Shown here: in pieces, positions 6,011 to 50,668 of the stretch | How the letters are laid out: the number at the start of each line of letters is the position of its first letter | Numbering within the stretch: position 1 is the first letter of the stretch | From: Candidatus Schekmanbacteria bacterium | GTDB taxonomy: Bacteria; Schekmanbacteria; GWA2-38-11; J061 | Assembly: GCA_016219965.1 (NCBI GenBank) | Contig: JACRJM010000006.1 | Location: 5,495 to 69,494 of the forward strand | Length of the DNA: 64,000 nucleotides | Direction: 5' to 3' | Notes under the pieces: generated by a model | The model's database searches: none | What the model saw: only the letters and a program-made list of their open reading frames with translations | Told to the model about the DNA's origin: nothing | Made by a program: the position numbers and the translations under genes

Positions 6011-6011
6011 T

Positions 6012-6539: not shown

Positions 6540-6541
6540 TT

Positions 6542-27365: not shown

Positions 27366-27388
27366 AAAAAGGGGACGCAACCCTTTTT
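27366..27388. repeat. AAAAAGGGGACGCAACCCTTTTT repeat
   Basis: One copy lies between the PNPOx-like and cyclase-family genes. Three more copies occur at 37268-37366. Its core GGG-ACGCAA-CCC is a short hairpin flanked by A and T runs, so it could act as a bidirectional terminator. Confidence 0.65.
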
Positions 27389-28237: not shown

Positions 28238-28546
28238 TTAACCTATCGTAATGCCTGTTCTTTCAATTTCTTCAGAGAAGCCTGATCGATCTTCAGATTT
28301 TATAAAAAGATGCGGCTCTATTCTGACATCAATATCATCAGCTAATTCGTAAAGCCTTTCCATCAAATGAAAATAATCATCATCCGGATCTAAGCTGTCA
28401 ATAAACAAACCAATATCTATATCACTAAAAGACTGCGGATTTCCATTGGCATACGACCCAAACAGAACAGCTTTTCTTAAAAAAAGAATCTCTCTGATTA
28501 GCTTTATATATTCTTCTGCTTTTCTAATAATTTCTGTTTGATCCAT
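28238..28546 (-). CDS. MNT-type nucleotidyltransferase antitoxin
   Basis: This 102-aa protein is a minimal nucleotidyltransferase with VLFGSYANGNPQSFSDIDIG, the GSx10DxD catalytic motif, and a later acidic residue in DVRIEPHLF. In HEPN-MNT pairs it modifies and silences the HEPN toxin. Its ATG lies 43 bases inside the end of the HEPN gene, in another frame, so the pair is co-translated. No other gene follows up to 27409. Confidence 0.9.
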   Translation of the reverse strand: MDQTEIIRKAEEYIKLIREILFLRKAVLFGSYANGNPQSFSDIDIGLFIDSLDPDDDYFHLMERLYELADDIDVRIEPHLFIKSEDRSGFSEEIERTGITIG

Positions 28547-28911
28547 TTCTGCATCTCCTGTGTCTTGCTTAGAATTTCTTTGCAGTTTTCATAGGTTAAA
28601 GAGTCAAATATTCTTTCTTTATACTCAGGATATCGTGCATCTATGTTCATTGGCTCCAACATTCTAAAAAAAGATTTCTGGGTTTCTGACAATGATTCAC
28701 TTAACCCAGTTTCTTTTGCAAGAAATCTTAGATTATGAGTCTTTGGAGGGATTTCATCTCTTATCAGCTGATAAAAAGCTTTTAGAATTTTCTCTATAGC
28801 CTGATGACACATGAAACCTACATACAAAAATCTTCTCGTTTCCAACATTGCACTTGCAGTTTCAATATCGTAGTCGGAAATTTCAATCCAGTATTGGACT
28901 TTGTCATTCAC
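28504..28911 (-). CDS. HEPN-domain toxin
   Basis: This 135-aa helical HEPN protein shows YWIEISDYDIETASAMLETRRF, FMCHQAIEKILKAFYQ, PPKTHNLRFLA and NIDARYPEYK, as in common HEPN-MNT partners. HEPN proteins of such pairs are usually RNases held in check by the MNT partner. It comes first in the pair. The 28912-29040 gap has no gene. Confidence 0.9.
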   Translation of the reverse strand: MNDKVQYWIEISDYDIETASAMLETRRFLYVGFMCHQAIEKILKAFYQLIRDEIPPKTHNLRFLAKETGLSESLSETQKSFFRMLEPMNIDARYPEYKERIFDSLTYENCKEILSKTQEMQKWIKQKLLEKQKNI

Positions 28912-29128: not shown

Positions 29129-29845
29129 ATGCAGTTAAACATCAGGGACGCTGCAAAGCTTCTGCACGTCTCAGAAAAAAAAATATATGAATGGATCCGG
29201 GATCGGAAACTTCCGGCAAATCAGGTTAGCGGACGTACATGGTTCAATCGGGCCGAGCTTCTTGAATGGGCTACTTCGCAGGGCGTAAACATCTCAGAAG
29301 AAATTATTGAAACAACGGATGCCACCTCTGTTTCAGGTGTGGGTTCAGGTTCTGGCTCAGCTTTAAGTTTTTCCAGCGCTCTTGAACGGGGGGGAATTTT
29401 CTATAATGTCGAGGGTGATGACAAACCATCAGTACTTAAATCTGTTCTTGATCTCATGCCGCTTCCAAAGGAGGCTGACCGCAAGTCATTGCTGCGCGTT
29501 CTTCTTGCAAGAGAAGAATTATCATCAACCGGAATCGGCAAGGGGATAGCAATACCGCATTCCAGAAACCCTATAGTTTTTCATGTTTCACAACCTGTAA
29601 TTTCTTTATGCTTTCTGAAAAAAGAGATAGATTTCTGCGCTATCGACGGAGAACCTGTTCATACTCTTTTCACGATTGTGACTCCCAATGCCCGTATTCA
29701 TTTGCAACTCCTTTCAAGGCTCGCATTTGCGCTTCATAATCCTTCCTTCAACAAAGTCATCAAACAGAAACTCCCGAAGGAAGAGATTCTAAAGATGGCG
29801 CACCGGATCGATTCAAATATCAAATCACCTGGTTCAACCGGATAA
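29129..29845 (+). CDS. helix-turn-helix protein with PTS EIIA (Ntr-type) domain
   Basis: This 238-aa protein has an excisionase/MerR-like HTH at residues 1-50 (LNIRDAAKLLHVSEKKIYEWIRDRKLP), a Gly/Ser-rich linker near 70-90, and a PtsN-like EIIA domain at ~100-238. The phosphorylatable His lies in GIAIPHSRNP, and the family region LCFLKKEIDFCAIDGEPV follows. It probably senses phosphorylation state and controls the adjacent complex. It lies 21 bases before the HyfB-like gene. Ribosome site: GGGAAAGG. Confidence 0.86.
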   Translation: MQLNIRDAAKLLHVSEKKIYEWIRDRKLPANQVSGRTWFNRAELLEWATSQGVNISEEIIETTDATSVSGVGSGSGSALSFSSALERGGIFYNVEGDDKPSVLKSVLDLMPLPKEADRKSLLRVLLAREELSSTGIGKGIAIPHSRNPIVFHVSQPVISLCFLKKEIDFCAIDGEPVHTLFTIVTPNARIHLQLLSRLAFALHNPSFNKVIKQKLPKEEILKMAHRIDSNIKSPGSTG

Positions 29846-29866
29846 ATAAAGGGCAGGACATTTCCA

Positions 29867-31855
29867 ATGTTCTATATTCTCATAGCAATCAGTGTTTTCA
29901 TAATCAGCGGTTTCGGCGCACTTGCAACCCGCAGGTCTCCGATAACAGCCTCAGGTATTGGAGCCGCAGGCGCAATAGCAGGCTCTGTTGCCGGGCTATT
30001 CCCGGCAAGCCGGATCCTTACCGGAGGAAGCTCTGAATCATTCCATGCTTCATGGAATATACCATACGGCTCCTTTAACATCGGACTGGATGGTCTTTCC
30101 GCATGGTTTGCTGCAATTATCCTCGGATTGTCCATTATAGCCGCAATGTACGGCTACCGGTATCTCATGGCTTACAGGGAGAAAAAATCTCTCGGGACGC
30201 CGTGGTTCTTCTTTAACCTGCTCATTGCAAGCATGCTCATGGTCGTCATCGCAAGAAACGGGATATTATTCCTTGTTGCATGGGAGATCATGTCTCTCTC
30301 ATCTTTTTTTCTGGTCACATTCGAAAATGAAAAAGAACATGTGCAAAAAGCCGGCTGGACTTATCTTGTTGCAACGCACACAGGCACAGCATTTTTATTC
30401 GTCATGTTTATTCTGCTTGGAGGCAGGAGCGGCTCTCTTGACTTTGAACGGTTGGGTCAGGTAAACAATCTTTCCCCCACAGTCATAACCATAATATTCT
30501 TATTTGCCATTGCCGGATTCGGCACAAAGGCCGGTTTTGTTCCGCTCCATGTGTGGCTTCCTGAAGCACATCCTGCCGCGCCAAGTCATGTATCTGCCCT
30601 GATGTCAGGAGTCATGATCAAAACAGGCATTTACGGCATTATGCGGATCTTAATGCTTCTTGGCACGCCGCAACCATGGTGGTGCTGGATGATGGTAGGG
30701 ATTGGATTGAGTTCAGGTATCATTGGTATTCTCTTTGCGCTTACCCAGCGTGAGCTTAAACCTTTGCTTGCATATAGCAGTGTAGAAAACATCGGAATCA
30801 TAATGACAGGGCTTGGTCTGGGATATCTCGGGCTGAGTTTCGGATCCTTTACAGTAGCGATACTTGGTTTTGGAGGTGCACTGCTTCATGTCATGAACCA
30901 TGCAATTTTCAAGGGTTTGCTTTTTTTAGGCGCAGGCTCGGTGATACACAGTACAGGCACGGGAAACCTCGACCGTCTCGGAGGTCTTCAAAAAAGAATG
31001 CCGTGGACAGGGATGACATTTCTCACCGGCGCGGTTGCAATCTCGGGACTGCCTCCGCTTAATGGATTTATCAGTGAGTTCATGATCTATTCGGGCGCAT
31101 TTTATTTAATCATTGCAAATCACGGGGAGACAGCAGGATTGATGCTCGCAATTATCGGAGGTCTAGCCCTGATAGGCGGACTTGCCGCCACCTGTTTTAC
31201 AAAAGTTTTCGGAATATGTTTTCTTGGCGAACCAAGGACAAAACATGCCGCAGACGCTCATGAGCCGGGTCTTTTAATGCGGATACCGATGTTGATTCTT
31301 TCTGCTGCATGTCTCTTTATCGGGATATTCCCCTATGCTGTTGTAAAGCTCCTTATACCCGTTTTAAGAGATATAACCGGAGGAGGCGCAGGAGCTATTG
31401 AAGAAAGCATGAGAAAAGTCACAGACATGCTTTCATTTATCGCAGTTTGTGCATGCGGAGTCTTACTTCTCGCATGTGTGATAGCGATTATTCGCCATAT
31501 ACTCCTCAAGGGACGAAAGACAGAAGAAACTGTTACATGGGACTGCGGATATGCAAAGCCTTCACCGCGAATGCAATACACTTCATCTTCATATCCTGCG
31601 GTGCTGACAGGACTTTTCAGCAAATTCATCTGGTTAAAAGGAAGAGGTCTTCCGCCAAAAGGTTTTTTTCCTGCGCACGCATCATTTGCAAGCGAACCTG
31701 AAGATACTTTTCTTGAAGGCTTTTATCAACCTGTCTTCAATGTAATAAACCATGGCATATCCAAACTGAAGTGGCTTCAGCGCGGAAAAGTGCAGGTTTA
31801 TGTTCTTTATATTGCCCTTACACTTTTAATCCTTTTAATCTGGGGGCTGATGTAA
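29867..31855 (+). CDS. HyfB/NuoL-like ion-translocating subunit
   Basis: This 662-aa membrane protein has about 14-16 helices of the antiporter-like family. The channel residues are kept: Glu in LFLVAWEIMSLSSFFLV and Lys in FGTKAGFVPLHVWLPEAH. The C-terminal ~150 residues match the HyfB-type extension (ETVTWDCGYAKPSPRMQYTSSSY). It is a subunit of a group-4-hydrogenase-like complex and should move H+ or Na+ across the inner membrane. It is the first structural gene after the regulator; the next gene starts 3 bases after its stop. Confidence 0.9.
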   Translation: MFYILIAISVFIISGFGALATRRSPITASGIGAAGAIAGSVAGLFPASRILTGGSSESFHASWNIPYGSFNIGLDGLSAWFAAIILGLSIIAAMYGYRYLMAYREKKSLGTPWFFFNLLIASMLMVVIARNGILFLVAWEIMSLSSFFLVTFENEKEHVQKAGWTYLVATHTGTAFLFVMFILLGGRSGSLDFERLGQVNNLSPTVITIIFLFAIAGFGTKAGFVPLHVWLPEAHPAAPSHVSALMSGVMIKTGIYGIMRILMLLGTPQPWWCWMMVGIGLSSGIIGILFALTQRELKPLLAYSSVENIGIIMTGLGLGYLGLSFGSFTVAILGFGGALLHVMNHAIFKGLLFLGAGSVIHSTGTGNLDRLGGLQKRMPWTGMTFLTGAVAISGLPPLNGFISEFMIYSGAFYLIIANHGETAGLMLAIIGGLALIGGLAATCFTKVFGICFLGEPRTKHAADAHEPGLLMRIPMLILSAACLFIGIFPYAVVKLLIPVLRDITGGGAGAIEESMRKVTDMLSFIAVCACGVLLLACVIAIIRHILLKGRKTEETVTWDCGYAKPSPRMQYTSSSYPAVLTGLFSKFIWLKGRGLPPKGFFPAHASFASEPEDTFLEGFYQPVFNVINHGISKLKWLQRGKVQVYVLYIALTLLILLIWGLM

Positions 31856-31858
31856 CGG

Positions 31859-32794
31859 ATGGAAACTCTTTCATTTATTCCTCTATTTATTCCTCTATTT
31901 ATTCCGCCATTAATGGCCATAATTTTATCACCACTTATCCCCGGAGTGATAAACCGTACCAAGGCGTTATTTGGAGGAAGAAAAGGCCAGCCTATTTTTC
32001 AGCTTTATTACGACCTCTGGAAACTTGCTGGCAAAGGAGCTGTTTACAGCCGTACGACATCATGGATCTTCCGGGCAGGCCCCATAGCAGGACTGTCTTC
32101 TGTTTTGATAGCGCTAACTCTCATTCCTTTCGGCGGGATCAGGGCTCTTATTGCTTTTAACGGCGACATCATACTGTTTGCGTACATACTCGGTCTTGGC
32201 CGTGTTTTTACTATCCTCGCAGCGCTCGACACAGGGTCAAGCTTTGAAGGTATGGGGGCAAGCCGCGAAGCACAGTTTTCAACCCTTGCAGAAGTCACAC
32301 TTTTTTTAGGGCTTTCAGCGGTTGTGATCAAGACCGGGACATTTTCTATCTCAGGAATCTCTAAGGCTTTATCACTTGATACATGGACAAGCTCTTTGGC
32401 AGTACTTGTTCTTGCAGGTATCTCCATTCTCGCCGTATTCCTTACCGAGAATTGCCGTATCCCGGTAGATGACCCTAACACACATCTTGAACTCACTATG
32501 ATTCATGAAGTAATGGTGCTGGACCACGGAGGTCCTGATTTGGCATTGATTCTTTATGCAGGAGCATTGAAGCTCTGGGTGCTTGGTGCACTGATGGCCG
32601 GAATAATCCTTCCTGTACTTAGCAGCAATTACTGGATGAACATCCTGATGACATCAGCTTTTCTGTTCATACTTTCTGTCAGCGTCGGGATCATTGAATC
32701 AACAATGGCAAGGCTCAGGCTTCGCAGGATTCCGCAACTCCTCATCGGAGCAAGCGCAACCGCGGTCATTGCACTTGCCCTGGCGCTAAGGTGA
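31859..32794 (+). CDS. HyfC/HycD/NuoH-like membrane subunit
   Basis: This 311-aa protein with about eight helices links the hydrophilic arm to the ion pump. Family marks are GRKGQPIFQLYYDLWKL, the GASREAQFSTLAE loop, and ENCRIPVDDPNTHLELTMIHE, with charged residues thought to face the electron-transfer module. It is followed 16 bases later by the HyfE-like gene. Confidence 0.9.
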   Translation: METLSFIPLFIPLFIPPLMAIILSPLIPGVINRTKALFGGRKGQPIFQLYYDLWKLAGKGAVYSRTTSWIFRAGPIAGLSSVLIALTLIPFGGIRALIAFNGDIILFAYILGLGRVFTILAALDTGSSFEGMGASREAQFSTLAEVTLFLGLSAVVIKTGTFSISGISKALSLDTWTSSLAVLVLAGISILAVFLTENCRIPVDDPNTHLELTMIHEVMVLDHGGPDLALILYAGALKLWVLGALMAGIILPVLSSNYWMNILMTSAFLFILSVSVGIIESTMARLRLRRIPQLLIGASATAVIALALALR

Positions 32795-32810
32795 TATCTA
32801 AGGTGATATA

Positions 32811-33464
32811 ATGATAAATTTCTTTGATGCCATAATGATCGTATTTATGATCACAAGCCTTCTTCTTCTCGGCTCAAGCAGGCTTGCAGGCTGCATACGG
32901 ATCGTTGCATTGCAGGGGATACTCCTAAGTCTTCTGCCTCTCATGGTAAGCGGGGGCGGGTTAACTATCGACTCATTGATCCTTTCTATAGGGACAATCA
33001 TTTTAAAGGGGATGGTCTTCCCGTGGTTATTGTCCCGTGCAATCCGTGAGGCCGAAGTACGTCGCGAAGTAGAGCCTTTTGTAGGCTACATAACATCGCT
33101 TGGCTTTGGAGGTGCGGCATTCGTAATCTCATTATGGATAGGCTCACGGCTTCCAGTCCCTCACGGGGAAGCTTCATCTCTTACATTGTCCGTTGCATTC
33201 TTCACTATTTTAACAGGATTTTTCCTTATAGTCACAAGGCGGAAAGCCATAAGTCAGGTGCTTGGGTATCTTACGCTTGAAAACGGAATCTATACTTTCG
33301 GGGTAGGACTCGCATACGATGAGCCTCTCCTTGTTGACCTTGGAATATTACTCGATATTTTCGTTGCCGTATTCGTCATGGGTATCACGCTTTTTCATAT
33401 CAACCGTGAGTTTGACAGCATAAGCACCGACCAGCTCGTAGAATTGAAGGACGGAGAAAAATGA
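32811..33464 (+). CDS. HyfE-like membrane subunit
   Basis: This 217-aa protein with about seven helices matches HyfE, including the NuoK-like N-terminal part (LRGILLSLLPL-type region) and REAEVRREVEPFVGYITSLG. It completes the membrane arm between NuoH-like and NuoN-like subunits. Its end overlaps the next gene's start (ATGA). Confidence 0.87.
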   Translation: MINFFDAIMIVFMITSLLLLGSSRLAGCIRIVALQGILLSLLPLMVSGGGLTIDSLILSIGTIILKGMVFPWLLSRAIREAEVRREVEPFVGYITSLGFGGAAFVISLWIGSRLPVPHGEASSLTLSVAFFTILTGFFLIVTRRKAISQVLGYLTLENGIYTFGVGLAYDEPLLVDLGILLDIFVAVFVMGITLFHINREFDSISTDQLVELKDGEK

Positions 33465-34939
33465 TCTCAGCATTGATATTAGTCCCTCTCTTTGCAGGTA
33501 TCGCGGCGCTGATCCTGCGAAATAATATTTGGCGCAGGGGATTGCTGTTGATCACTGCGATTTTCCACACAGGTATGACTTTGTCAGCATGGTCGGTGAA
33601 ACCAGCACCTTCACTTGAAGGATGGCTTGCTTTTGATGCAATAGGTCTTCTGTTTCTCACGATAACAAGCCTTCTTTTTTTCTTCTGTAGTTTATATGCG
33701 ATCAATTATCTGAAAAACGAACCGCCTGTAAACCATGAGGACTTTGAAGAAAGGGTTTTCTTTTCAAATGCACCTGAAGCAAGGTTCACCGGATGTCTTC
33801 TTTTTTTTCTTGCAACCATGACCCTTGTCCCGCTTTCCCAGCATTTCGGGATACTCTGGGTATCAATTGAAGCAACGACGCTTGCCAGTGCGCCGCTTAT
33901 CTTTTTTCACAGACATCACAGGTCTCTGGAGGCGACATGGAAATATCTGCTTGTCTGCTCTGTCGGAATCGCAGTTGCATTGCTCGGCAATTTCTCCCTT
34001 GCCGTAGCTGCCTCCATGGAAAAAGGGAACCATATCTCCATGGTCCTTGGCGAGATGATAAAAGATGCACCACATCTTCATATCCCGTGGCTTAAAGCAG
34101 CTTTCATATGTTTTCTGGTAGGCTATGGGACAAAAATGGGGCTTGCTCCGATGCACACATGGCTTCCTGATGCTCACAGTGAATCACCTTCAGTAGTCTC
34201 CGCACTTCTCTCAGGAGCGCTTCTAAACTGCGCCTTTGTAGGGATATTAAGGGCATATCAGATTTGCTCTGCCGCGGGAATCGCACAGTTCAGTCAGAAA
34301 TTACTTACTGTATTCGGTCTTTTTTCAATGCTTGTAGCCGCAGTTTTCATTATCGGCCAGACCGATTACAAGCGGCTTCTCGCATATTCAAGCATAGAAC
34401 ACATGGGTATCCTCTCTCTCGGTGTCGGTATCGGGGGAAGCGCAAGATTCGGCGCAATCCTTCATGCAATCAATCATTCGTTTACAAAGGGGATGCTTTT
34501 TCTTCTGGCAGGGAACATCCTTAGTTTTTATAAAACCAAGGACTGCGGCAGGGTCAAGGGGATATCACGCATCCTTCCTCAATCAGGAGCATTATGGATA
34601 GCCGGGCTCTTTGCGATTACCGGTTCTCCTCCATTTGGCTCATTTATAAGCGAGTTTCTCATATTGAAAGGCGCCATTGAAAGCGGACACTTCATCGCAG
34701 CATCAGCATATCTCCTGTTTCTGGCCCTGATTTTCATAGGGATGGCAACCGTCATGATGCCAATGGTACAGGGAACCCCGTCAGAAGAGATTAAAAACCT
34801 CAAACCGGGAAAAGAAACCCTGCTTTCAATAATACCCCCAGTGGCGCTCGGTATTATAATGGTAGTGCTTGGCATCTATATTCCCTCCTTTCTAAGCCGT
34901 GCGGTTGAGCAGGCATCTAATATGTTGGGAGGATTCTGA
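33461..34939 (+). CDS. HyfF/NuoN-like ion-translocating subunit
   Basis: This 492-aa antiporter-like subunit has about 14 helices. The channel residues are WVSIEATTLASAPLIFF (Glu) and GYGTKMGLAPMHTWLPDAH (Lys), with AYSSIEHMG further on. It pairs with the HyfB-like subunit to give two ion-translocation modules. It overlaps the large subunit start by one base (TGATG). Confidence 0.9.
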   Translation: MISALILVPLFAGIAALILRNNIWRRGLLLITAIFHTGMTLSAWSVKPAPSLEGWLAFDAIGLLFLTITSLLFFFCSLYAINYLKNEPPVNHEDFEERVFFSNAPEARFTGCLLFFLATMTLVPLSQHFGILWVSIEATTLASAPLIFFHRHHRSLEATWKYLLVCSVGIAVALLGNFSLAVAASMEKGNHISMVLGEMIKDAPHLHIPWLKAAFICFLVGYGTKMGLAPMHTWLPDAHSESPSVVSALLSGALLNCAFVGILRAYQICSAAGIAQFSQKLLTVFGLFSMLVAAVFIIGQTDYKRLLAYSSIEHMGILSLGVGIGGSARFGAILHAINHSFTKGMLFLLAGNILSFYKTKDCGRVKGISRILPQSGALWIAGLFAITGSPPFGSFISEFLILKGAIESGHFIAASAYLLFLALIFIGMATVMMPMVQGTPSEEIKNLKPGKETLLSIIPPVALGIIMVVLGIYIPSFLSRAVEQASNMLGGF

Positions 34940-36465
34940 TGGATAATTTTCCTTTTTTAAATATCTATAACTCCGTAGCCGTACCCTTTGAAAACATTCC
35001 ATTACTTGATATTTCCCGGTTCAGAAAAGAAGTTATAGAGTATGTTGAAGCCGGGGCAAGGATTGTGTCATTGTTCGGTTTTAGAAGAAAAGATAATTCT
35101 GTCCTTCTCATAGCTGTTATTGCGCAGGATCAGACCGGAGTCCTGTCTCTTGCGGCCAGTGAATGCGGGAATACCTATAAATCATTGACACCCGACTGCC
35201 CGCAGGCGCACTGGTTTGAAAGGGAAATAGCAGAACAATTCGGCATCCATCCTGAAGGTCATCCATGGTTAAAGCCGGTCCGTTTTCACTTACCATTTGG
35301 CGCTGAAAAGAATAAGCAGAAACAACATCAGGGAGAGAAAGAAATGCTTCCGGGCGTTACTGATTTTTTTGAAGTCGAAGGTGAAGAGGTGCATGAAGTC
35401 GCAGTCGGCCCTGTTCACGCAGGGATAATCGAGCCGGGACATTTTCGTTTCCAGTGCCACGGAGAAAAAGTCCTGCACCTTGAGATATCACTTGGCTACC
35501 AGCACCGCGGTATAGAGCAGGTTATTCCCGGAGGACCTGACAAGCGCACAATCCACTACATGGAAACACTTGCCGGCGACACTTCGGTGGGACATGCTTC
35601 CGCATATTGCCATGCCGTTGAGGCATTGGCAGGATGCAATATTTCCGCAAGGGCGCAGACTCTTCGGGCAGTCGCCCTTGAGCTTGAACGCCTTGCAAAT
35701 CACACAGGAGATCTGGGAGCGCTTTCCGGAGATATCGGCTATCTTCCGACAGCATCATATTGCGGAAGGCTGCGCGGCGATTTTCTCAACATGACGGCGC
35801 TCCTTTGCGGAAGCCGTTTCGGACGCGGGTTTATAAGACCGGGAGGAACAGCATTCGACACAGATGAAGCTCTCGTCTCAGAACTTTTAAAAAGGCTTGA
35901 ACGTGCAACGGAAGAGACAGCAGGGGCTGTAAACCTGCTCTGGGAAACTGCAACCGTTGTGGGAAGGTTTGAAGAAACAGGAAAACTTGAACGGGAAACC
36001 TGTGAAGCTTTAGGAATCGTGGGCGTTCCTGCAAGAGCAAGCGGCATAGTGCGTGACGTAAGGTTCGATTTTCCATACGGCTACTTCAGGTTCTCTCAAA
36101 TCCCTGTATCCACGTGGGGCTCAGGTGATGTATTTGCCAGAGCTTATGTTCGCTGGCTTGAGATACAGAGGTCTGCAGATTTCATCCGGCAGGAGCTTAA
36201 AACAATGCCCGATGAAAAGGTGAAAACCAGCATAGGTAAATTATCTTCCGATTCACTCGTAGTATCACTCGTTGAAGGCTGGCGCGGGGAGATCTGCCAT
36301 GTAGGGATAACAGATGAGAACGGCCGCTTTTCCCGCTATAAGATAGTCGATCCTTCATTCCACAACTGGTTCGGGCTTGCAATGGCCATGCGCAATGAGG
36401 AGATATCAGATTTTCCTTTATGCAATAAAAGTTTCAACCTTTCATACTGCGGACATGATTTGTAA
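34939..36465 (+). CDS. HyfG/HycE-like large subunit without NiFe ligands (Ehr type)
   Basis: This 508-aa NuoCD-like fusion has residues ~1-125 NuoC-like (HWFEREIAEQFGIHPEGHP) and the rest NuoD/large-subunit-like (ISLGYQHRGIEQ, LELERLANHTGDLGALSGDIG). In group 4 hydrogenases the first CxxC lies in a RICGICGxxH-type motif; here the same place reads TLAGDTSVGHASAY. The C-terminal CxxC also fails to match: NLSYCGHDL stands where DPCxxCTxR is expected. No Ni can therefore be bound as in hydrogenases. This is the mark of energy-converting hydrogenase-related (Ehr) complexes, whose substrate is unknown. The usual C-terminal cleavage tail is also missing. Confidence 0.88.
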   Translation: MDNFPFLNIYNSVAVPFENIPLLDISRFRKEVIEYVEAGARIVSLFGFRRKDNSVLLIAVIAQDQTGVLSLAASECGNTYKSLTPDCPQAHWFEREIAEQFGIHPEGHPWLKPVRFHLPFGAEKNKQKQHQGEKEMLPGVTDFFEVEGEEVHEVAVGPVHAGIIEPGHFRFQCHGEKVLHLEISLGYQHRGIEQVIPGGPDKRTIHYMETLAGDTSVGHASAYCHAVEALAGCNISARAQTLRAVALELERLANHTGDLGALSGDIGYLPTASYCGRLRGDFLNMTALLCGSRFGRGFIRPGGTAFDTDEALVSELLKRLERATEETAGAVNLLWETATVVGRFEETGKLERETCEALGIVGVPARASGIVRDVRFDFPYGYFRFSQIPVSTWGSGDVFARAYVRWLEIQRSADFIRQELKTMPDEKVKTSIGKLSSDSLVVSLVEGWRGEICHVGITDENGRFSRYKIVDPSFHNWFGLAMAMRNEEISDFPLCNKSFNLSYCGHDL

Positions 36466-36474
36466 GGTAAAAAT

Positions 36475-37254
36475 ATGCTGAAGGTCTTAAAAGAGCGTTT
36501 TAAACAGGGTAAATGTACAATTGCCTATCCGGCAGGAGATGCACCTCCTCTGCCGAACCGCTTTAGGGGATATCCTGCGATCGACCGGTCTAAATGTCCC
36601 GACAACTGCCGCGCCTGTATAGACGCATGTCCTGTGGGCGCTGTTTCATTTGTTGTTTCATCTGCACTTTCATGTAATGACAAGACAATTCAGATTGATT
36701 TAGGTAAATGTCTTTTCTGCACCGAGTGCACAGATGCATGCACAGGGAAAGCAATAAGCTTCACGAAAAATCACGAGCTTTCAAAACATAAGAGGGAGAA
36801 CCTGATTTTAAAAGCAGGCGAAACAATGAATGTTGAGACAGGGCTTGATAAAAAAATAAAAAAACTTTTTGGCAGGTCTCTAAAGCTCCGCCAGGTCAGC
36901 GCCGGAGGATGCAACGGCTGTGAGGCTGATATAAATGTGTTGAGCACCATAGTCTATGATCTTGGCCGCTTCGGCATTCAGTTTGTCGCATCGCCACGCC
37001 ATGCAGATGGCCTGCTCATAACAGGCCCGGTCACTGAAAATATGAAACTTGCCCTTGAAAAAACTTATGCTGCCGTACCGTCTCCAAAGCTTGTCATTGC
37101 AGCAGGCGCTTGCGCTATCTCAGGAGGTCCATATATTGGCCACTGTCAGGCTAACAACGGAGCTGACAGCATAGTACCGGTTGATTTATATATCCCGGGC
37201 TGTCCGCCCCATCCGCTTACAACTCTTCACGGTCTGCTAATGCTAAAAAAGTAA
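36475..37254 (+). CDS. fused ferredoxin and HyfI/NuoB-like subunit
   Basis: This 259-aa protein has an N-terminal double 4Fe-4S domain (CPDNCRACIDACP at ~39-51 and CLFCTECTDAC at ~76-86, HyfH-like) followed by a NuoB-like domain (SAGGCNGCEADINVLST, GACAISGG and YIPGCPPHP) that binds the N2-type cluster. In E. coli the two domains are separate proteins. It would hand electrons from ferredoxin to the large subunit. It is the last gene of the complex, 9 bases after the large subunit, and is followed by a strong terminator. Confidence 0.9.
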   Translation: MLKVLKERFKQGKCTIAYPAGDAPPLPNRFRGYPAIDRSKCPDNCRACIDACPVGAVSFVVSSALSCNDKTIQIDLGKCLFCTECTDACTGKAISFTKNHELSKHKRENLILKAGETMNVETGLDKKIKKLFGRSLKLRQVSAGGCNGCEADINVLSTIVYDLGRFGIQFVASPRHADGLLITGPVTENMKLALEKTYAAVPSPKLVIAAGACAISGGPYIGHCQANNGADSIVPVDLYIPGCPPHPLTTLHGLLMLKK

Positions 37255-37267: not shown

Positions 37268-37366
37268 TAAAAAAGGGACGCAACCCTTATAAAAATTAAA
37301 AAGGGGACGCAACCCTTATTAAAGAAAAGTAAAAAAGAAAGAAAAAAAGGGTTGCGTCCCCTTTTT
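37268..37366. terminator. triple GGGACGCAACCC repeat; bidirectional terminator
   Basis: Two direct copies (at 37275 and 37303) and one inverted copy (37347-37366) of AAAAAGGGGACGCAACCCTT lie between converging genes. The second and third can pair over about 20 bases, with T and A runs at the ends, giving a long bidirectional terminator. Confidence 0.75.
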
Positions 37367-37610
37367 AATTCCCGCCGGCGACAGGTGGGAAAATCGCAAC
37401 GCGGTCGTTTTCTTTTACAATGTAATCAAGCTCGGCATGGACGCCGTTCACGATTATGATCTTTGTTTCTTCTTTTGGTATGCCAAGCAGTTTAAGAAGA
37501 CTTTCTATTGAAGTGTTGTCTTCAATATCTATCATCTTCCCCTTCGCAAGATCAAGGTCCGGCATATATTTCAAAAGGGTAGCATAAGCTCTGACTTCGA
37601 TTTTCTGCAT
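37365..37610 (-). CDS. MoaD/ThiS-family sulfur carrier
   Basis: This 81-aa beta-grasp protein (IEVRAYATLLKYMP, VAIFPPVAGGN) supplies sulfur for molybdopterin dithiolene synthesis and often accompanies tungsten-dependent AOR. It lies immediately downstream of an AOR gene. The C-terminus is GGN, one residue longer than the usual terminal GG needed for thiocarboxylation, so trimming or a different role is possible. A terminator hairpin separates it from AOR. Confidence 0.8.
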   Translation of the reverse strand: MQKIEVRAYATLLKYMPDLDLAKGKMIDIEDNTSIESLLKLLGIPKEETKIIIVNGVHAELDYIVKENDRVAIFPPVAGGN

Positions 37611-37675: not shown

Positions 37676-39415
37676 TTATAGTTTTGCCCAGACCTGATCC
37701 AGCTCAGCCGGGGTGATACCGAAATTGATGTTATGCGGAGGACATGTTTCAAGGTCAAAGAACTCCGGAAGCCTGTCGTCGTTCTTGTTGAAACCTGCTG
37801 CCTCGTTGAATTTGAGCTCTGTGCGGATAATGCTCTTGCCAAGCTCGATAATATCAGGAACCGTGAATGTGATTCCGTACTGAGCACTGATCATATCTGC
37901 AATAGCCTGCAATCCTTCTGGCATATCAAGGCATGCAATCGCAACAAATAGACAAAGCCCTGTTGCATCAACAGCCGCTGTTGCAACCTGCATATCCCTT
38001 GAGCAGTCAACCTGTCCCTCTTTCTTAAGAGGATTGATATCGCCGCCTACCTTGAGGATGTTCTGGCATACAGAATAACCTGCTGTATGGTCTGCGCCCA
38101 TTGTGCTTGTGGCATAGGTTACGCCGATACCTTTTACTGTCCTCGGGTCATAAGCAGGAAGCGCCTGTCCTTTAACAACAGGAACGCGGGTAATCCCGTA
38201 TATCTTGCCGAGAACTGCTGCGCCCTGTCCTACTATTCTGCCGAGAGGCGTTTTCTTTCCTACTTCTTCAAGGACTTTGATAAAGGAAGCTGCATCGCCA
38301 AACTTTGCAAGCCCTGCTTCTGCAGCAACTGCAAGGGTAACTCCTGCTTCTATCGTATCAATTCCCACGTCATTGCAAATCCTGTTCATTATCGCAACGC
38401 TGTCAATGTCGCCAACTTCAAGATTGCCGCCCAATGACCATGCTGTCTCATATTCAACTGGAGCACAAAGTGATTTACCATTCTTGTCAGGGAAAATATT
38501 GGAACACCTGATTACGCATCCTGGATGGCAAACATGTACTGCTTTTCCTTCACCGCCGCGGCTCTTACATTCTTCAGCTATCTTTTCTCCGCTGATTCCT
38601 GCTGCGCCTGCAAAACGGCCGTTCCTGAAATTCCTGGTCGGGAATCCGCCTGCTTCATTCAGGATGTTGACCAGAACTGCTGTCCCGTAGTTGGGAAGCG
38701 CTTCACCTGTAACCGGGTGCTTTAACAGGACCTGGCTGAAAATCTTTGCTGCTGCCTTGAATTTCTCTTCATCTTTGATGGCAACCTTACCTGCGCCTGC
38801 ATCATCAACGACTATTGCCTTTAGTTTCTTTGAACCCATAACTGCGCCTAAGCCGCCTCTTCCTGCAAACCTTCCTGAGCCGCCTTCAGGGTCGCATACG
38901 GAGATTCCGGCATTCGCCATTCTCTCTTCACCTGCGGGTCCAATGCTGATTACGCCAACGCCTTTGCCGTGCTTGTTCCAGAGCTTCTCAACTGTCGCAT
39001 AGGTTCCAAGACCTGCAATGTCATCTGCTGAAACGAGTTCCGCGCCATCTTTTGTAACTTTCAGAAGATGCCACTTGTTGTCTTTAGGTTCACCTTCAAT
39101 GATGATAGCCTTGACATTGTTCTTTGCGAGCTTCTGGCTTGCGATACCTCCGACGTTCGATTCTTTGATCGTGCCGGTAAGAGGACTCTTTCCGCCAAAA
39201 GACATCCTGCCTGAGCATGCTGCAGATGTGCCGCTTAAAACTCCGGGCGCTGCGATAAGCTTGTTAAGCGGTCCCAGAGGATTGCATGTCGCCTGAATTT
39301 CGTCTGCAACTATCTGCGAAGTCAGACTGCGTCCGCCTAGCAGTGCATACTTAGCCGGGCACTTCTCCTCTTTCACTTTCAGTGTGGTCATATCCACTCT
39401 GATGATTCTGTCCAT
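37676..39415 (-). CDS. aor: tungsten-type aldehyde:ferredoxin oxidoreductase
   Basis: This 579-aa enzyme oxidises aldehydes to acids and reduces ferredoxin. Marks are RGGLGAVMGSKKLKAIVV (pterin binding), the cluster motif VCHPGCVIRCSN and the distal Cys in DATGLCLFVAIA, and GVTYATSTMGADHTAGY. The cofactor should be a bis-pterin W (or Mo) centre plus one 4Fe-4S. A promoter lies upstream and a terminator downstream. Ferredoxin reduced here could feed the Ehr-type complex encoded convergently (inference). Confidence 0.93.
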   Translation of the reverse strand: MDRIIRVDMTTLKVKEEKCPAKYALLGGRSLTSQIVADEIQATCNPLGPLNKLIAAPGVLSGTSAACSGRMSFGGKSPLTGTIKESNVGGIASQKLAKNNVKAIIIEGEPKDNKWHLLKVTKDGAELVSADDIAGLGTYATVEKLWNKHGKGVGVISIGPAGEERMANAGISVCDPEGGSGRFAGRGGLGAVMGSKKLKAIVVDDAGAGKVAIKDEEKFKAAAKIFSQVLLKHPVTGEALPNYGTAVLVNILNEAGGFPTRNFRNGRFAGAAGISGEKIAEECKSRGGEGKAVHVCHPGCVIRCSNIFPDKNGKSLCAPVEYETAWSLGGNLEVGDIDSVAIMNRICNDVGIDTIEAGVTLAVAAEAGLAKFGDAASFIKVLEEVGKKTPLGRIVGQGAAVLGKIYGITRVPVVKGQALPAYDPRTVKGIGVTYATSTMGADHTAGYSVCQNILKVGGDINPLKKEGQVDCSRDMQVATAAVDATGLCLFVAIACLDMPEGLQAIADMISAQYGITFTVPDIIELGKSIIRTELKFNEAAGFNKNDDRLPEFFDLETCPPHNINFGITPAELDQVWAKL

Positions 39416-43436: not shown

Positions 43437-45830
43437 CTAAAATTTAGTCTCGATACCGGCTATGTATCTTGCAACTGCGGATGGGAATCCTCCATCTTCG
43501 TAGTAGAATTTACTGAAGATATTTTCTATCGCAAAGGTGAGCTTCATCTTCCCGTCAAACAAAGGCTGTGCCATCTTTAAATCCCATATCCAATGCTCAG
43601 GCTGGCGTAGTGAACCGCCGGGATATACGGCAGTCACAAAATGAGTGGTGCTCTTAAAACGCCCTTCAACATCAAACCATAGACCGAATGGAAAAGTATA
43701 ATTGGAGCCAATCTTCAATATATGGGTAGGAGTGAACTCCATTCTACTCCCATCCTTAAACTTAGGCCCTATGGCTGTTCCGTTAACGGCAATAAAAAGT
43801 CTTTGAGGAGCTCCCTGACTGAAGTCAAAGGGATTGGGGTTTCCTGCAACATGTCTCTGGAAAGTATATGCAACATTGATATCCCATTTTCCCAATGGAG
43901 TAAATTGAAGTGCTGTATCGAAACCCTGAGCCACTGCATCAGGGCCATTGATAAATGTATACGCCGTGTAGTTAGCGAAATTCTTGCCTGATCTGTACTG
44001 CTGCTCTGGCGAAATTCCGAGAACTTCTTCGCTGTAAGTCGAACCATTGTATCGGACACCATTTCTATCCCTGCCAACGAAACCTAATGGCACAGGGATT
44101 TCAATATCAGAATAATCATCATAAAAATAAGCGATGTCACCGCTTACGTATTTAGTTGAGAACTTAAAACCCATCTCATATGTCCAGTTCACTTCAGGTT
44201 TCAAATCAGGGTTGCCAAAAAGAATGCCATTTGACTGGGCAAAGGCGAATTTATCTGTAAACCCCGGGAACCTTCTTGCTCTTCCAACTGAAAAACGAAG
44301 GCTTGTTCCGGGACTGAACTCGTAATTTAAGCCCGCTCTCGGGGAGAATTCATCATCAAGATCATCTATAAATGTTGTTGCCTGATCCCATCTTCCGCCA
44401 AGGGACAATGTAAAGTTTTTAACATAAAGTAGATCATTAAAAAACAGGGAATGAATATTCCTTTTTTCACTTGGGTTTAAATATCCCAAAGATTTTGATG
44501 TGCTCTTAGTCCATCTGTATTCCTGACCGACAGTCAATATATTCCCGTCAAAGATATCAGACCTGTAACTTAAATCATTTGCAATGCTAAAACTCCTGTT
44601 AATGAGTTCGTCATGAATAATGGAAAAAGGATTTTCAGGGTCGCCATTTGCAAACATGTCTCTTAGACCATTTATAGTTTCTTCTTCCGGGCTATAGTCA
44701 ATATAATCATTTACTAGAATAGCGTCTGCCATGTCAGTGCTCTTCATAAGACCAGCCCTGAAATTGTATGTAAGCCCTGGCGTTATCTCCCATCTGTCTG
44801 AAATATTAAGTGTGTCCTTCCTGTTTTTAATCCTTATTAAATACTGCGAGAATATCGCACTAGGTCTTTCAAGCGGCATATTACCCGGAGAAACAACATT
44901 GTAAAAATCAACATAAGAATACCCCGGCATTATTCTCAGGGTATTTCCTTTAAAGAGATTGAAGCCAAGATTAAGGTTAACAGAATATCTCTCAGACTTA
45001 TCATGGTCTCCAACATCTATAAGTTCATTGAGATCCTCTCCTAATTTGAATGGGATTTCTCTTCTGCCGCCGGGGAGAACCTTTGTTCCATCAGGAAACC
45101 TGCCCATTCCGGGATTGTTCTTTGCAAAAAGGGTGTATGCACTTCCTACCCTATTTTTATCAGCAGTGGTAAACCCGCTTGAATGAACATAATCAGCGCT
45201 TATTGCATAGTCAAAATACTTGTTGCCCCAGCCATGAAACATTGAATAGTTCTCATATAACTCTCTTTCAGCACTTCTTCGCCGCTGGTAAGTCCCATAG
45301 CTAACCTTGGCATCTGTAATAGGTTTCAATGTTCCTTTCCTGGTGATGATATTTACAACACCTGCTGAAGCCTCTGTGCCGTAGCGTGCCGATAATGCTC
45401 CTTTTAAAATCTCGATTTTTTCGATATTGACAGATGGAATCTGGTAGATGTCTGCATAACCGGTTGCAGGGTCATTGTATGGAATACCATCTATAAGAAG
45501 CTTTATCCCGCTCGATGCGATTCTTGGCGGAACAGCAGTCCTTCCCCTGATCTTTATCGTTTTCATCATTATCGATGAACTCGATTCAGTTTCTACCCCA
45601 GGAACATAAGTAAGGAAATCTGCTGCATCAACCGGAGAAGGGATTTTTTCAAAATCCTTTTCTGAGATTCTTTCAGAAGAGACAGTATTATCACTCAGCT
45701 CTTCTTCTGCTGAATAAGCTGCACCTGTCTGGAAAAAAAACATGGTAAATATTAGGAGTGTTGTAGTTCTCAAGCAGATGCAAGATTTTCGCGTAAGACG
45801 CGAAAGTTGCCAGTGAGAAAAGCGGAGCAT
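43437..45830 (-). CDS. TonB-dependent receptor without the N-terminal regulatory domain
   Basis: This protein has a plug (IKIRGRTAVPPRIASSG, LLIDGIPYNDP, IEKIEILKGALSARYG, VNIITRKG) and a 22-strand-type barrel ending ...YIAGIETKF, with a C-terminal Phe. It is a paralogue of the upstream receptor but lacks the ~90-residue CarboxypepD_reg domain. The ATG at 45830 and the first ~19 codons lie inside a 123-base inverted-repeat element. A TTG at 45773, just past the element, would give a compact signal peptide (RTTTLLIFTMFFFQTGAAYSA). 797 aa from 45830. It probably handles a ligand related to that of its neighbour. Confidence 0.85.
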   Translation of the reverse strand: MLRFSHWQLSRLTRKSCICLRTTTLLIFTMFFFQTGAAYSAEEELSDNTVSSERISEKDFEKIPSPVDAADFLTYVPGVETESSSSIMMKTIKIRGRTAVPPRIASSGIKLLIDGIPYNDPATGYADIYQIPSVNIEKIEILKGALSARYGTEASAGVVNIITRKGTLKPITDAKVSYGTYQRRRSAERELYENYSMFHGWGNKYFDYAISADYVHSSGFTTADKNRVGSAYTLFAKNNPGMGRFPDGTKVLPGGRREIPFKLGEDLNELIDVGDHDKSERYSVNLNLGFNLFKGNTLRIMPGYSYVDFYNVVSPGNMPLERPSAIFSQYLIRIKNRKDTLNISDRWEITPGLTYNFRAGLMKSTDMADAILVNDYIDYSPEEETINGLRDMFANGDPENPFSIIHDELINRSFSIANDLSYRSDIFDGNILTVGQEYRWTKSTSKSLGYLNPSEKRNIHSLFFNDLLYVKNFTLSLGGRWDQATTFIDDLDDEFSPRAGLNYEFSPGTSLRFSVGRARRFPGFTDKFAFAQSNGILFGNPDLKPEVNWTYEMGFKFSTKYVSGDIAYFYDDYSDIEIPVPLGFVGRDRNGVRYNGSTYSEEVLGISPEQQYRSGKNFANYTAYTFINGPDAVAQGFDTALQFTPLGKWDINVAYTFQRHVAGNPNPFDFSQGAPQRLFIAVNGTAIGPKFKDGSRMEFTPTHILKIGSNYTFPFGLWFDVEGRFKSTTHFVTAVYPGGSLRQPEHWIWDLKMAQPLFDGKMKLTFAIENIFSKFYYEDGGFPSAVARYIAGIETKF

Positions 45831-45897
45831 ACTTTTTCCGTATGTGAGCATTTTCGATCCGGCAACTGACAAAGTATTATGCAAAATATTGCATCTG
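45775..45897. repeat. 123-base nested inverted-repeat element at the start of the tandem receptor
   Basis: Ends: CAGATGCAA (45775-45783) and TTGCATCTG (45889-45897). Nested inside: TTTCGCGT-AAG-ACGCGAAA, then GTTGCC/GGCAAC, GAAAA/TTTTC and GCATAC/GTATG. It begins just before the stop codon of the upstream receptor gene and ends at the likely original start of this one. It resembles a MITE or REP unit; no target duplication is clear. Confidence 0.65.
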
Positions 45898-45898
45898 T

Positions 45899-48535
45899 TT
45901 AAAATTTGGTCTCCAACCCCCAAACATACCTCGCCACATTGGACGGTATTCCGCCATTTTCAAAATAGAGCTTGCTGAAAACGTTCTCTATGGAAAAGGT
46001 AAGTTTCGCCTTGCCATTAAATAAAGGCTGCGCCATCTTGAAATCCCATATCCAGTGCTCGGGTTGCGGAAGTGTTCCGCCGGGATACACAGCAGTCACA
46101 AAATGAGTGGTGCTCTTAAAGCGCCCCTCTACATCAACTCTCAGGTCGAATGGAAAAGTATAACCGGAACCTACTTTGAATATATGGGTAGGATACCACT
46201 CGAGTCTGTTGCCTTGCTCAAGAAGTGGTCCTATTGGTATCCCGTCAGCAGCAATGAAAAGTCTCTGAGGAGTTCCCTGACTGAAGTCAAAAGGATTGGG
46301 ATTTCCTACAATAGCCCTCTGGAACAGGTACGAAAGTGAAATCTGCCAGTCTTTTGTTGGATTTATTTCAACAGATGTATCAAATCCCTGGAAAACAACA
46401 TTAGGTCCGTTTATATAAGTATTGCTCCTTTGTTGTTCAAAATTCTTGCCAGTGGCTGCCTGTGCTGCTCTTGAAATACCAAGAACCTGTTCCGAATAAG
46501 CCGCACCGTCTGCAAATCCCAATGACTGCAGGGTCACGGGAAGTTCAAAATCCGAGTAATCATCATAGAAGTATGCGATATCGCCATTTACATATTTAGT
46601 CGAGAACTTGAATCCGAGTTCGTATGTCCAGTTAATTTCCGGATCTAAGGCAGGATTCCCGAAAGAACGTCCATTTGACTGAGCAAGTCCGAATTTTCTT
46701 GCAAACTCAGGAAACCTTCTTGCCCTTCCAATTGAAAAACGGAAACTCGTGCCCGGAGAAATCTCATAATTAAATCCAACACGAGGTGAAAACTCATCAT
46801 CAAAATCATCGATAAACGTTGTAGCCTGGTCCCATCTGCCGCCAACTGAAAATGTCAGGTCCTTTATAACAAGCATATTCTGAAAAAACAGGGAATGAAT
46901 ATTCCTTTTAACGCTCGGCTGTACATAACTTAAGGTGGGCGATGAGCTTTTTGTCCATTGATATTCCTGGCCTATTGTAAGCGTGTCGCCATCTAAAATG
47001 TCAAATTTGTAGCTTAAGTCATTTGCAAATGTGAAGCTCCTGTTTAACATAAAGTCAGGGGCAGGTGAAAATGGGCCACCTCCTCCTACGAAACCGTCTT
47101 TCAAACCAGATACCGCTTCCGTCTCCTTATCATAGTCAATAAAATCATTCACAAATAGGAAATCAGCGATATCAGTGCTTTTTATTAGTCCCATCCTGAA
47201 ATTGTAAGTAAGATTCGGGGTGATATCCCATTTGTCAATTATGTTAAGAGCATCCCTTCTGTTAAGTATCCTTAAGCCTGACTGGAGAAATGTTTCACTT
47301 GGTATTGATATAGGTATGTTTCCGGGAGAGAATATGCTGTAGGAGTTAAGAAAGGAATAACTCGGGTTGATTCTCAGCTTATTCCCTTTGAACAGATTAA
47401 TGCCAAGGCTAGCACTTGCTGAATATCTCTCAGCCTTGTCATGGTCACCAACATCAAAAAGCTCGTTGACATTTTTCCCCAGCATAAAAGGGATTTCCCT
47501 TCTGTTGAGAAGAACCTTCGTACCATCAGGAAGACGCCCTTGCCCGGGATGGCTTTTGGCAAACAGGCTGTAAGCGCTTCCAACCTTATTGGTATCTGCG
47601 CTCGTAATACCGCTTGTATGGGCATACGCCACGCTTAATGCATAATCAAAATACTTATTTCCCCAGCCGTGACTGAAGGTATAACTTTCATATAACTCTC
47701 TTTCAGCCCTGCTTCTGCGCTGGAATGTCCCGAAACTTGCTCCTGCAGATGTATAAGGTTTAGTCTGCCCTTTCCTCGTTATGATATTTATGACACCCGC
47801 TGCTGCCTGACCACCGTACTGTGCTGATGAAGCACCTTTTACAACCTCGATCCTCTCGATGTTCTCGGAAGGTATCTGGTAAATGTTCGCATATCCTGAC
47901 GCAGGGTCATTTGAAGGTATGCCGTCAACAAGGAGAAGTATCCCGCTTGATGCGGTACGCGGAGGGGTTGCAGTCCTTCCTCTTATCTTTATCGTCTTGG
48001 TAAAAGGAGATGAGCCGCTTTCCATCTGTACACCCGGGGTATAAGCAAGAAGATCAGCAGCATTTGTTGCAACCGGGACTTTCTCAATATCCCTGGAAGA
48101 CACTACAGCAACCGAAGCTGTTGTCTTTGAAAGGGGAATATTAAGCCTTTCTCCCGTGACTACGACTTCCTCACCTTTGATGGCAAGGGCTTCCTCCATT
48201 TTTAAATTGACTTTGGTTGTTTCCCCTTCAAGTACTGTTACATTCAATGCCTCAGAGGGTTTATATCCTAAAAGTTCAGCCCTTAGCTTATATGTGCCGG
48301 GTTTAAGACTTATCTCATATTCTCCCTTTTCATTCGTATAAACGATAATGTCCGTTCCTTCTACGGTTACAGCTATACCGGGAAGAGGCGTTTTGCTTGC
48401 CTCATCTGTGACAGTGCCTGAGATATTTCCTTTTTCTGCCGCAAAGGAAGCTAAAGTGCCGGAAAAAGATAAAATCAAAAATAAAGCAAAAAGCACGGCA
48501 AACCAGTATCTCCCCCCTAAAAACCTGAAAGTCAT
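45899..48535 (-). CDS. TonB-dependent receptor with CarboxypepD_reg domain
   Basis: This 878-aa protein has a signal peptide ending near LASFAA, a regulatory-like domain at ~35-115 (TNEKGEYEISLKPGTYKLRAE), a plug (IKIRGRTATPP, LLVDGIPSNDPASGYANIYQIP, GQAAAGVINIIT) and a barrel ending YVWGLETKF. It is close to the truncated receptor at window position 1. It starts 13 bases after the MFS stop, behind GGAGGACACCGC. An outer-membrane receptor coupled to an MFS permease suggests uptake across both membranes. Confidence 0.93.
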   Translation of the reverse strand: MTFRFLGGRYWFAVLFALFLILSFSGTLASFAAEKGNISGTVTDEASKTPLPGIAVTVEGTDIIVYTNEKGEYEISLKPGTYKLRAELLGYKPSEALNVTVLEGETTKVNLKMEEALAIKGEEVVVTGERLNIPLSKTTASVAVVSSRDIEKVPVATNAADLLAYTPGVQMESGSSPFTKTIKIRGRTATPPRTASSGILLLVDGIPSNDPASGYANIYQIPSENIERIEVVKGASSAQYGGQAAAGVINIITRKGQTKPYTSAGASFGTFQRRSRAERELYESYTFSHGWGNKYFDYALSVAYAHTSGITSADTNKVGSAYSLFAKSHPGQGRLPDGTKVLLNRREIPFMLGKNVNELFDVGDHDKAERYSASASLGINLFKGNKLRINPSYSFLNSYSIFSPGNIPISIPSETFLQSGLRILNRRDALNIIDKWDITPNLTYNFRMGLIKSTDIADFLFVNDFIDYDKETEAVSGLKDGFVGGGGPFSPAPDFMLNRSFTFANDLSYKFDILDGDTLTIGQEYQWTKSSSPTLSYVQPSVKRNIHSLFFQNMLVIKDLTFSVGGRWDQATTFIDDFDDEFSPRVGFNYEISPGTSFRFSIGRARRFPEFARKFGLAQSNGRSFGNPALDPEINWTYELGFKFSTKYVNGDIAYFYDDYSDFELPVTLQSLGFADGAAYSEQVLGISRAAQAATGKNFEQQRSNTYINGPNVVFQGFDTSVEINPTKDWQISLSYLFQRAIVGNPNPFDFSQGTPQRLFIAADGIPIGPLLEQGNRLEWYPTHIFKVGSGYTFPFDLRVDVEGRFKSTTHFVTAVYPGGTLPQPEHWIWDFKMAQPLFNGKAKLTFSIENVFSKLYFENGGIPSNVARYVWGLETKF

Positions 48536-49909: not shown

Positions 49910-50668
49910 TCATTTTTCCCAAAGCTGATAAGGTGAAAACCCTTCTTTCATAAGTGAGGAATCAAAATAAATTATCCTTTCAACATCTATCCTTGTCATA
50001 ATCATTCTTTTCAAAGCGCGGTCAGGAGTTACTCTGTAAAAGACATATTTTTTTGCAAGATCACTAAATTCCGCGGTACCAGGCTCATAAGGAGTTGCCT
50101 TGCCAAAAACCTGAACACTCTTCCACCAGCGGACCGAAGGAGGTGTTGGTCCTTCGATGGAACCTTCATAATGTACCATGCTTACAAGTGAGTTCTTCGT
50201 AAGCTCTGTCATCTTTTCAGTTCCCTTTTCATTGGAGCAGATGAAGATATGCTCATCAGGAACAAGGGTAAAGTCAGCAGTAGTTGCCGTAGGATAATAT
50301 TTGCCGTCTTTTTCTCCAACTGTTGCCATCACGAAACGCTGCCTGTTGGGAAGAAAATCAGAGATCTTTTTCCAGAGAGCATCTTTTGGCATCTGAGCAT
50401 AGTTGTTAATCCATGTTTTAGTTGCTGTTGACTCTGCATCGTACTGAACTTCATGGCATTCAGAGCAGGTCATTGATATTTCAACATTCGGGTGGTTCGG
50501 GATTTTTTTATCCGTTGCTTTTATTGCAGCAGGCTTTACTTTTGTTTCAGCAGGTGCACTTGCCGCTGAAGCAGCTCCCGGTTTTTCGTCAGCAGCAAAA
50601 AGACCAGCAGAATAAAAACCTAGAGAACCGCAAAGCACAATCACCAACAGCCATCTGAGTCTCGTCAT
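49910..50668 (-). CDS. exported haem-c-motif protein with PNPOx-like flavin domain
   Basis: This 252-aa protein starts at the ATG at 50668, 8 bases after GGAGG. It has a signal peptide (residues 1-25), an Ala/Pro/Lys linker, one CSECH haem-c site (CxxCH, ~residue 70) and then a split-barrel resembling PNPOx (RQRFVMATVGEKDGKYYPTATTADFTLVPDEHIFICSNEKGTEKMTELTKN). A monohaem plus flavin fold in one periplasmic protein is unusual to me. It could shuttle electrons to a substrate captured by the receptors (inference). Haem attachment would need the cytochrome c system; CcdA is encoded at 25048. Confidence 0.82.
   Translation of the reverse strand: MTRLRWLLVIVLCGSLGFYSAGLFAADEKPGAASAASAPAETKVKPAAIKATDKKIPNHPNVEISMTCSECHEVQYDAESTATKTWINNYAQMPKDALWKKISDFLPNRQRFVMATVGEKDGKYYPTATTADFTLVPDEHIFICSNEKGTEKMTELTKNSLVSMVHYEGSIEGPTPPSVRWWKSVQVFGKATPYEPGTAEFSDLAKKYVFYRVTPDRALKRMIMTRIDVERIIYFDSSLMKEGFSPYQLWEK

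Follow-up and report, generated by a model that had tools for sequence, protein, structure and literature searches.

Ehr (hydrogenase-related) complexes form a known family whose large subunit lacks the two cysteine pairs (CxxC) that hold NiFe in group 4 hydrogenases. As the absence of these ligands is the defining trait of Ehr, it is not rare. Among the better described relatives, hydrogenase 3 of the formate hydrogenlyase and hydrogenase 4 of Escherichia coli (HycE, HyfA–I) share fold and subunit types with Ehr, and complex I (Nuo) has homologous ion-pumping and connecting subunits and, like Ehr, no NiFe site. Mbh and Mbs/Mbx of the Thermococcales are group 4 related, ferredoxin-linked ion pumps with an antiporter make-up different from that of Ehr. 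Here we analyze an Ehr operon and its adjoining regulatory gene in a 64,000 nt stretch of a Candidatus Schekmanbacteria genome (contig 6, bases 5495–69494), which we refer to as the window and within which positions are counted. The host genome is 3.58 Mb in size and 98% complete, and belongs to a sparsely sampled lineage.

Several roles of Ehr have been considered. In Geobacter sulfurreducens the Ehr subunits GSU0739–45 were all more abundant in formate-grown cells than under hydrogen-containing conditions (PMC7894505), and a complex of formate dehydrogenase with Ehr (FDH–Ehr) was proposed for Margulisbacteria and Saganbacteria (PMC6349859). A role in pH homeostasis was suggested for Methylacidiphilum (PMC6688271), ferredoxin reduction appears as the role of Ehr in one published view (PMC4704411), and another account states that the “function remains unknown” (PMC10284858).

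The locus in the window consists of seven tightly packed genes on the + strand (29129–37254), namely a gene for a helix-turn-helix (HTH)-EIIA regulator and six structural genes, ehrABCDLS, encoding HyfB-, C-, E-, F-, G- and fused H/I-type subunits. The same six-subunit set and the same missing CxxC pairs are found in the known Ehr of G. sulfurreducens (GSU0739–45), Methylacidiphilum, comammox Nitrospira and Margulisbacteria. The window Ehr forms one clade with the Ehr of Geobacteraceae and shows no difference in kind; the HTH-EIIA gene directly upstream and the fused EhrS are both common in its clade. By its sequence the locus is a canonical, well-formed and typical Ehr operon, of a family that was already known, as was its loss of NiFe. 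What the locus adds is the conserved linkage to the HTH-EIIA gene and a pointer to variants without the proximal (N2-type) cluster.

Loss of the NiFe Site in EhrL

The HyfG/HycE-type large subunit EhrL (34939–36465; 508 amino acids; Complex1_49kDa and Complex1_30kDa domains) was aligned with E. coli HycE and with the NuoD and NuoCD of the host itself. At the first ligand pair RVCGIC of HycE aligns to TLAGDT of EhrL, CGIC being replaced by AGDT (A212–T215; 35572–35583). At the second pair DPCYSC aligns to NLSYCG and CYSC is replaced by SYCG (S502–G505; 36442–36453). This second site lies at the extreme C-terminus of EhrL, which lacks the extension that follows the motif in hydrogenases 3 and 4. 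A pattern search found no replacement CxxC elsewhere in EhrL. The search itself works, as it recovered both pairs in eight group 4 hydrogenases from other genomes that served as positive control (L012, L013, L015–L017, L019, L024, L026; labels of this kind are our own).

Neither pair is present in any of 87 aligned large subunits, that is, the one in the window and 86 relatives from many phyla. D214 is invariant across this whole set, and neither S502 nor G505 varies in 42 aligned relatives. The segments GPVHAGIIEPGHFRF and DFPLCNKSFNLSYCGHDL are nearly letter-identical across phyla, and this conservation suggests that the former NiFe site has a function, which would be other than the hydrogenase one. 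In the host genome we found neither the NiFe maturation protein HypD nor any NiFe hydrogenase; the sole PF00374 match is the NuoD of the host.

The closest solved relative of EhrL in a profile search is HycE (7z0s_E, 2.4e-69), followed by complex I chains. MbhL (6cfw_L) and 6u8y_L were also found by the EhrL profile, with a lower similarity of the large subunit. HycE was again the best match when an AlphaFold model of EhrL, with a mean predicted local distance difference test (pLDDT) score of 85.4, was used as query in Foldseek, and superposition of the two with VIA-align gave a Z of 39.0 over 471 residues at 2.9 Å. In a tree made with a quick method, which left out the CxxC-bearing deep-branching L147, 37 Ehr large subunits form one clade with 100% support in the Shimodaira–Hasegawa-like approximate likelihood ratio test (SH-aLRT), beside HycE and away from NuoD. 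The nearest rows to the window EhrL in our trees are from Myxococcota, Zixibacteria and Planctomycetota.

The original prediction, made from the window alone, had described an Ehr-type complex with HyfB-, C-, E-, F-, G- and H/I-type subunits and a large subunit devoid of both CxxC pairs. Open reading frames (ORFs) and Pfam/NCBIfam matches confirm the subunit set, with the nuance that H and I are a single fused protein, and the loss of both pairs is borne out by the alignment with HycE and NuoD, the former of which had been proposed as a check. CxxC motifs elsewhere in EhrL and hydrogenase maturation genes, both named as grounds for rejecting the prediction, were not found by sequence (no HypD). 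The identification as Ehr is upheld by the subunits, the missing ligands, the fully supported clade beside HycE and the lack of HypD in the genome.

Electron Wire and Ion Path

EhrS (36475–37254; 259 amino acids), the fused HyfH–HyfI-type subunit (Oxidored_q6 5.3e-28, Fer4), is predicted from its cysteine positions to carry two 4Fe-4S clusters and a proximal cluster of the N2 type. The eight Fer4 cysteines (41, 45, 48, 52, 79, 82, 85, 89) and the four of the proximal cluster (C146, C149, C213, C243) are all kept.

The ion-path residues are likewise present. They comprise E140/K221/K298/K349 in the antiporter-like EhrA (HyfB-type; 29867–31855; 662 amino acids; Proton_antipo_M 1.6e-55, hydrogenase 4 subunit B 3.3e-184), E137/K225/K304/K343 in the antiporter-like EhrD (HyfF-type; 33461–34939; 492 amino acids; Proton_antipo_M, hydrogenase 4 subunit F 1.7e-113) and the conserved acids E130/E137/E145/E197/E211/E217 in the membrane subunit EhrB (HyfC/NuoH-type; 31859–32794; 311 amino acids; NADHdh 1.6e-29). 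Across the family the Lys and Glu residues of these three subunits are ∼93–100% conserved, in agreement with the earlier claim that the ion-channel residues are intact. The remaining membrane subunit, EhrC (HyfE-type; 32811–33464; 217 amino acids), matches the NCBIfam hydrogenase 4 membrane subunit (4.9e-27) and scores slightly below the Pfam cut-off for Oxidored_q2.

The HTH-EIIA Regulator

The first gene of the locus (29129–29845) encodes an HTH_17/excisionase-like HTH domain (Pfam HTH_17, 1e-11) fused to an EIIA-2 domain of the phosphotransferase system (PTS; PTS_EIIA_2, 5.1e-26), and its product is likely the transcription regulator of the operon. HTH-EIIA and Ehr genes are conserved neighbours. 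Of 86 Ehr loci from many phyla, 40 have the HTH-EIIA gene at their side (≥80 bits), usually directly before ehrA, and in L035, where the gene order is altered to C-E-F-G-HI-reg-B, the regulator is still inside the cluster. Among cultured bacteria, Geomonas limicola (L079) has the regulator and Ehr in the arrangement seen here. In a survey of 290 genomes, just 38 of which contain Ehr, the regulator profile was matched over its full length in 14 (E ≤ 1e-30). An Ehr large-subunit gene is found no more than 7.5 kb away from ten of the 14 matches, a share that is biased upward by the use of Ehr-linked regulators to build the profile. By our own estimate, chance alone would bring such genes together in well under 1% of cases.

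The four matches that are not near Ehr lie by a ClC channel gene (L139), by a stand-alone EIIA gene (L140 and L141) and among EIIA genes (L142). In L139 the HTH-EIIA gene (7584–8273) is directly followed by the ClC channel gene, which includes a CBS domain (5818–7584, - strand). This adjacency suggests that the regulator family may have a part in ion transport beyond Ehr. The literature we searched, with most subscription journals outside its coverage, yielded no report of a link between HTH-EIIA and Ehr.

The active-site residue His144 of the EIIA domain (29558–29560) is conserved in 98% of 41 homologue rows. As the host has a cluster RpoN-HPF-PtsN-HPr kinase-EIIA/B/C/D-HPr-EI, a phosphate donor chain exists. 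The regulator fits the PTS-controlled type, with a DNA-binding domain, an EIIA domain with a phosphorylatable His, and EI and HPr in the genome. The original prediction had the regulator place the operon under control of the cellular phosphorylation state. The link turns out stronger than was apparent then, as the HTH-EIIA gene adjoins Ehr across phyla, the phosphorylatable His is retained and the genome contains the phosphorelay. From these we infer a phosphorylation-dependent control of the Ehr operon.

Variation Among Related Ehr Complexes

Ehr is present in very many phyla, with at least 575 confirmed loci. The N2 cysteines of EhrS are retained in most relatives. All four are lost in L036, L038/L156, L058, L110 and L157, and three are lost in L039, L102 and L167, with acids or Trp/His often in place of the Cys (GGNAAEE, GAEAISGG, PGWPPHP). 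These N2-less complexes retain the large-subunit motifs and the pump subunits. In L036, L058 and L110 both ferredoxin clusters are kept without N2, so that electrons could enter the wire but would find no way out. Mapped onto a tree of 109 large subunits, N2 loss needs eight changes, at least five of which fall on well-supported branches. The same literature search returned no report of N2 loss in Ehr.

On a deep branch, L147 combines Ehr-like motifs with both CxxC pairs intact (ERICGVCSFSH, KSFNLCYSCTDL), and L148 of the same branch has one Cys of each pair. These two are possibly stages between a group 4 hydrogenase and Ehr. L151 and L153 were grouped with them as large subunits with Ehr-like motifs. 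Most of the N2-less and CxxC-bearing variants come from draft genomes and are to be taken with caution; among L036, L058, L102, L110, L157 and L167, several stem from metagenome bins or drafts. The Ehr clusters of L045, L058, L060, L066, L067, L072, L076, L079, L091, L094, L100, L117, L160 and L174 each contain two HyfB-type genes, which suggests that the number of pumping units per Ehr complex may be variable.

Genomic Context of the Operon

The intergenic gaps in the Ehr locus are, in order, 21, 3, 16, -4, -1 and 9 bases, and this spacing is our argument for co-transcription. Promoter matches in the region show no excess (15, against a shuffle mean of 13.1 with a standard deviation of 3.9). 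Terminator-like sites number 15 against a mean of 8.5 and fall mostly within genes. The guanine plus cytosine (GC) content of the operon is 0.46–0.48, compared with ∼0.43 in the surroundings; being only slightly above them, it does not support the idea of a recently acquired foreign island. As Ehr was not found in the three nearest relatives of the host, it was possibly gained by transfer or lost in those relatives.

A HEPN/minimal nucleotidyltransferase pair of the toxin-antitoxin type (28238–28911, - strand) lies upstream and divergent from the operon. Downstream and convergent with it are a ThiS/MoaD-like gene (37365–37610) and, beside this, a gene for an aldehyde:ferredoxin oxidoreductase (AOR) identified by Pfam (37676–39415, - strand); a second ORF (51939–53819, - strand) appears related by eye. 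The AOR gene and this ORF are a possible source of reduced ferredoxin. The downstream AOR and ThiS-like genes were also considered as Ehr partners and rejected, as no counterpart of either one was seen in the other Ehr loci searched.

The repeat GGGACGCAACCC flanks the Ehr region on both sides, with exact copies at 27372–27383, 37275–37286, 37304–37315 and 37349–37360. These four copies in the window compare with 0.02 expected, and the 28 copies genome-wide are mostly nearby inverted pairs; our guess is that they are palindromes resembling repetitive extragenic palindromic (REP) elements. Further along, two adjacent and closely similar TonB-dependent-receptor-like proteins (828 and 878 amino acids; 43437–48535, - strand) appear by eye to be a tandem duplication, and an apparently exported protein (49910–50683, - strand) has, also by eye, a CxxCH haem-type motif followed by a pyridoxamine-oxidase-like domain.

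Possible Functions of the Complex

Our best overall explanation, which we hold tentatively, is a redox pump of the ferredoxin type that has ceased to use protons or hydrogen in its terminal reaction and is governed by an HTH-EIIA switch. Low-potential electrons, most likely from reduced ferredoxin, would enter via EhrS and reach the proximal cluster, and a small non-hydrogen partner would be reduced or oxidised at the place of the former NiFe centre in EhrL, a pocket that three invariant segments (EPGHFRF, AGDT and DFPLCNKSFNLSY) would close. A shape change would then, in the manner of formate hydrogenlyase, Mbh and complex I, push ions through EhrB/C/D/A. By PTS phosphorylation (EI-HPr to His144), the HTH-EIIA protein would probably switch the operon and so tie the pump to the energy or carbon state. 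The idea of the original prediction that the complex would still move ions and react with an unknown partner agrees with the view in the literature. In this scheme we infer the electron donor and acceptor, the identity of the pumped ion and the regulation. Clustering of the genes beside 80 Ehr loci gave no recurrent dedicated dehydrogenase gene, and the sole recurrent family was that of the histidine kinases. That no other family recurs beside Ehr suggests that the partner is a soluble carrier and not a dedicated protein.

Three observations weigh against this explanation. The pocket segments of EhrL (157–173 and 491–502) mostly have a pLDDT below 50 in the AlphaFold model, so that the shape of the former NiFe pocket is not readable from it. 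Several Ehr complexes have no proximal cluster, and electron delivery to the pocket can therefore not be essential in all of them. Finally, over half of the Ehr loci, some of which are cut at contig ends, show no regulator.

Electrons could instead be delivered by a soluble formate dehydrogenase or a similar enzyme docking on EhrS. Such a dehydrogenase-linked pump would fit the FDH–Ehr proposal (PMC6349859) and the higher levels of Ehr reported for G. sulfurreducens on formate (PMC7894505), the molybdopterin oxidoreductase family has nine matches in the host genome, some of them partial, and the AOR gene lies a short way downstream of the operon. However, that AOR gene is on the opposite strand and has no homologue in the other Ehr loci searched, and no dehydrogenase gene recurs near the 80 loci; we consider a pump of this kind unlikely. 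Much the same reserve applies to the idea that Ehr is mainly a regulated machine for ion or pH homeostasis, with redox transfer to the old site diminished or missing, EIIA as the sensor of the state of the cell and the antiporter part doing the work. The repeated loss of N2 ligands in related complexes, the conservation or duplication of the antiporter subunits (B occurs twice in many loci), the close HTH-EIIA relative adjoining a ClC channel gene in L139 and the suggestion made for Methylacidiphilum (PMC6688271) all point in this direction, but the window EhrS keeps all of its Fe-S cysteines and most relatives keep those of N2.

EhrL also superposes well on the quinone-binding NuoD chains (Z ∼33–35), which likewise have no CxxC pairs, and a complex I-like enzyme that reduces quinone in the old NiFe pocket could be envisaged. 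We regard this as improbable: EhrL is nearer to HycE than to NuoD by sequence and in the tree and keeps the hydrogenase EPGHFR rather than the corresponding NuoD sequence, the operon has no NADH module, and the host already has a complete-looking complex I set in addition to a second NuoB-CD-F-G-type set. A true hydrogenase with unusual ligands, which the overall similarity to HycE and the two CxxC pairs of the Ehr-like L147 might bring to mind, is very improbable indeed and is already contradicted by the lack of ligand cysteines, of HypD and of any other NiFe hydrogenase in the genome.

The variants described above also allow a more speculative reading, to which we give little weight, with Ehr as a series that sheds its redox parts. 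The NiFe ligands would go first (both pairs in L147, one Cys of each in L148, none in most), followed by the proximal cluster in at least five lineages. The complexes of the N2-less end group would act as ion machines whose drive or gate is not the passage of electrons to the old site, and HTH-EIIA would tie them to the energy state. On such a series, the window would represent the stage at which the wire is intact and the site changed.

Whichever of these applies, the conserved regulator provides a handle on when the Ehr pump is used. The natural N2-less variants bear on whether the pump needs electrons at the former active site, and their loss of N2 questions whether electrons must reach that site. 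Ehr thereby bears on the evolution of complex I from hydrogenases and on the coupling of redox chemistry to pumping.

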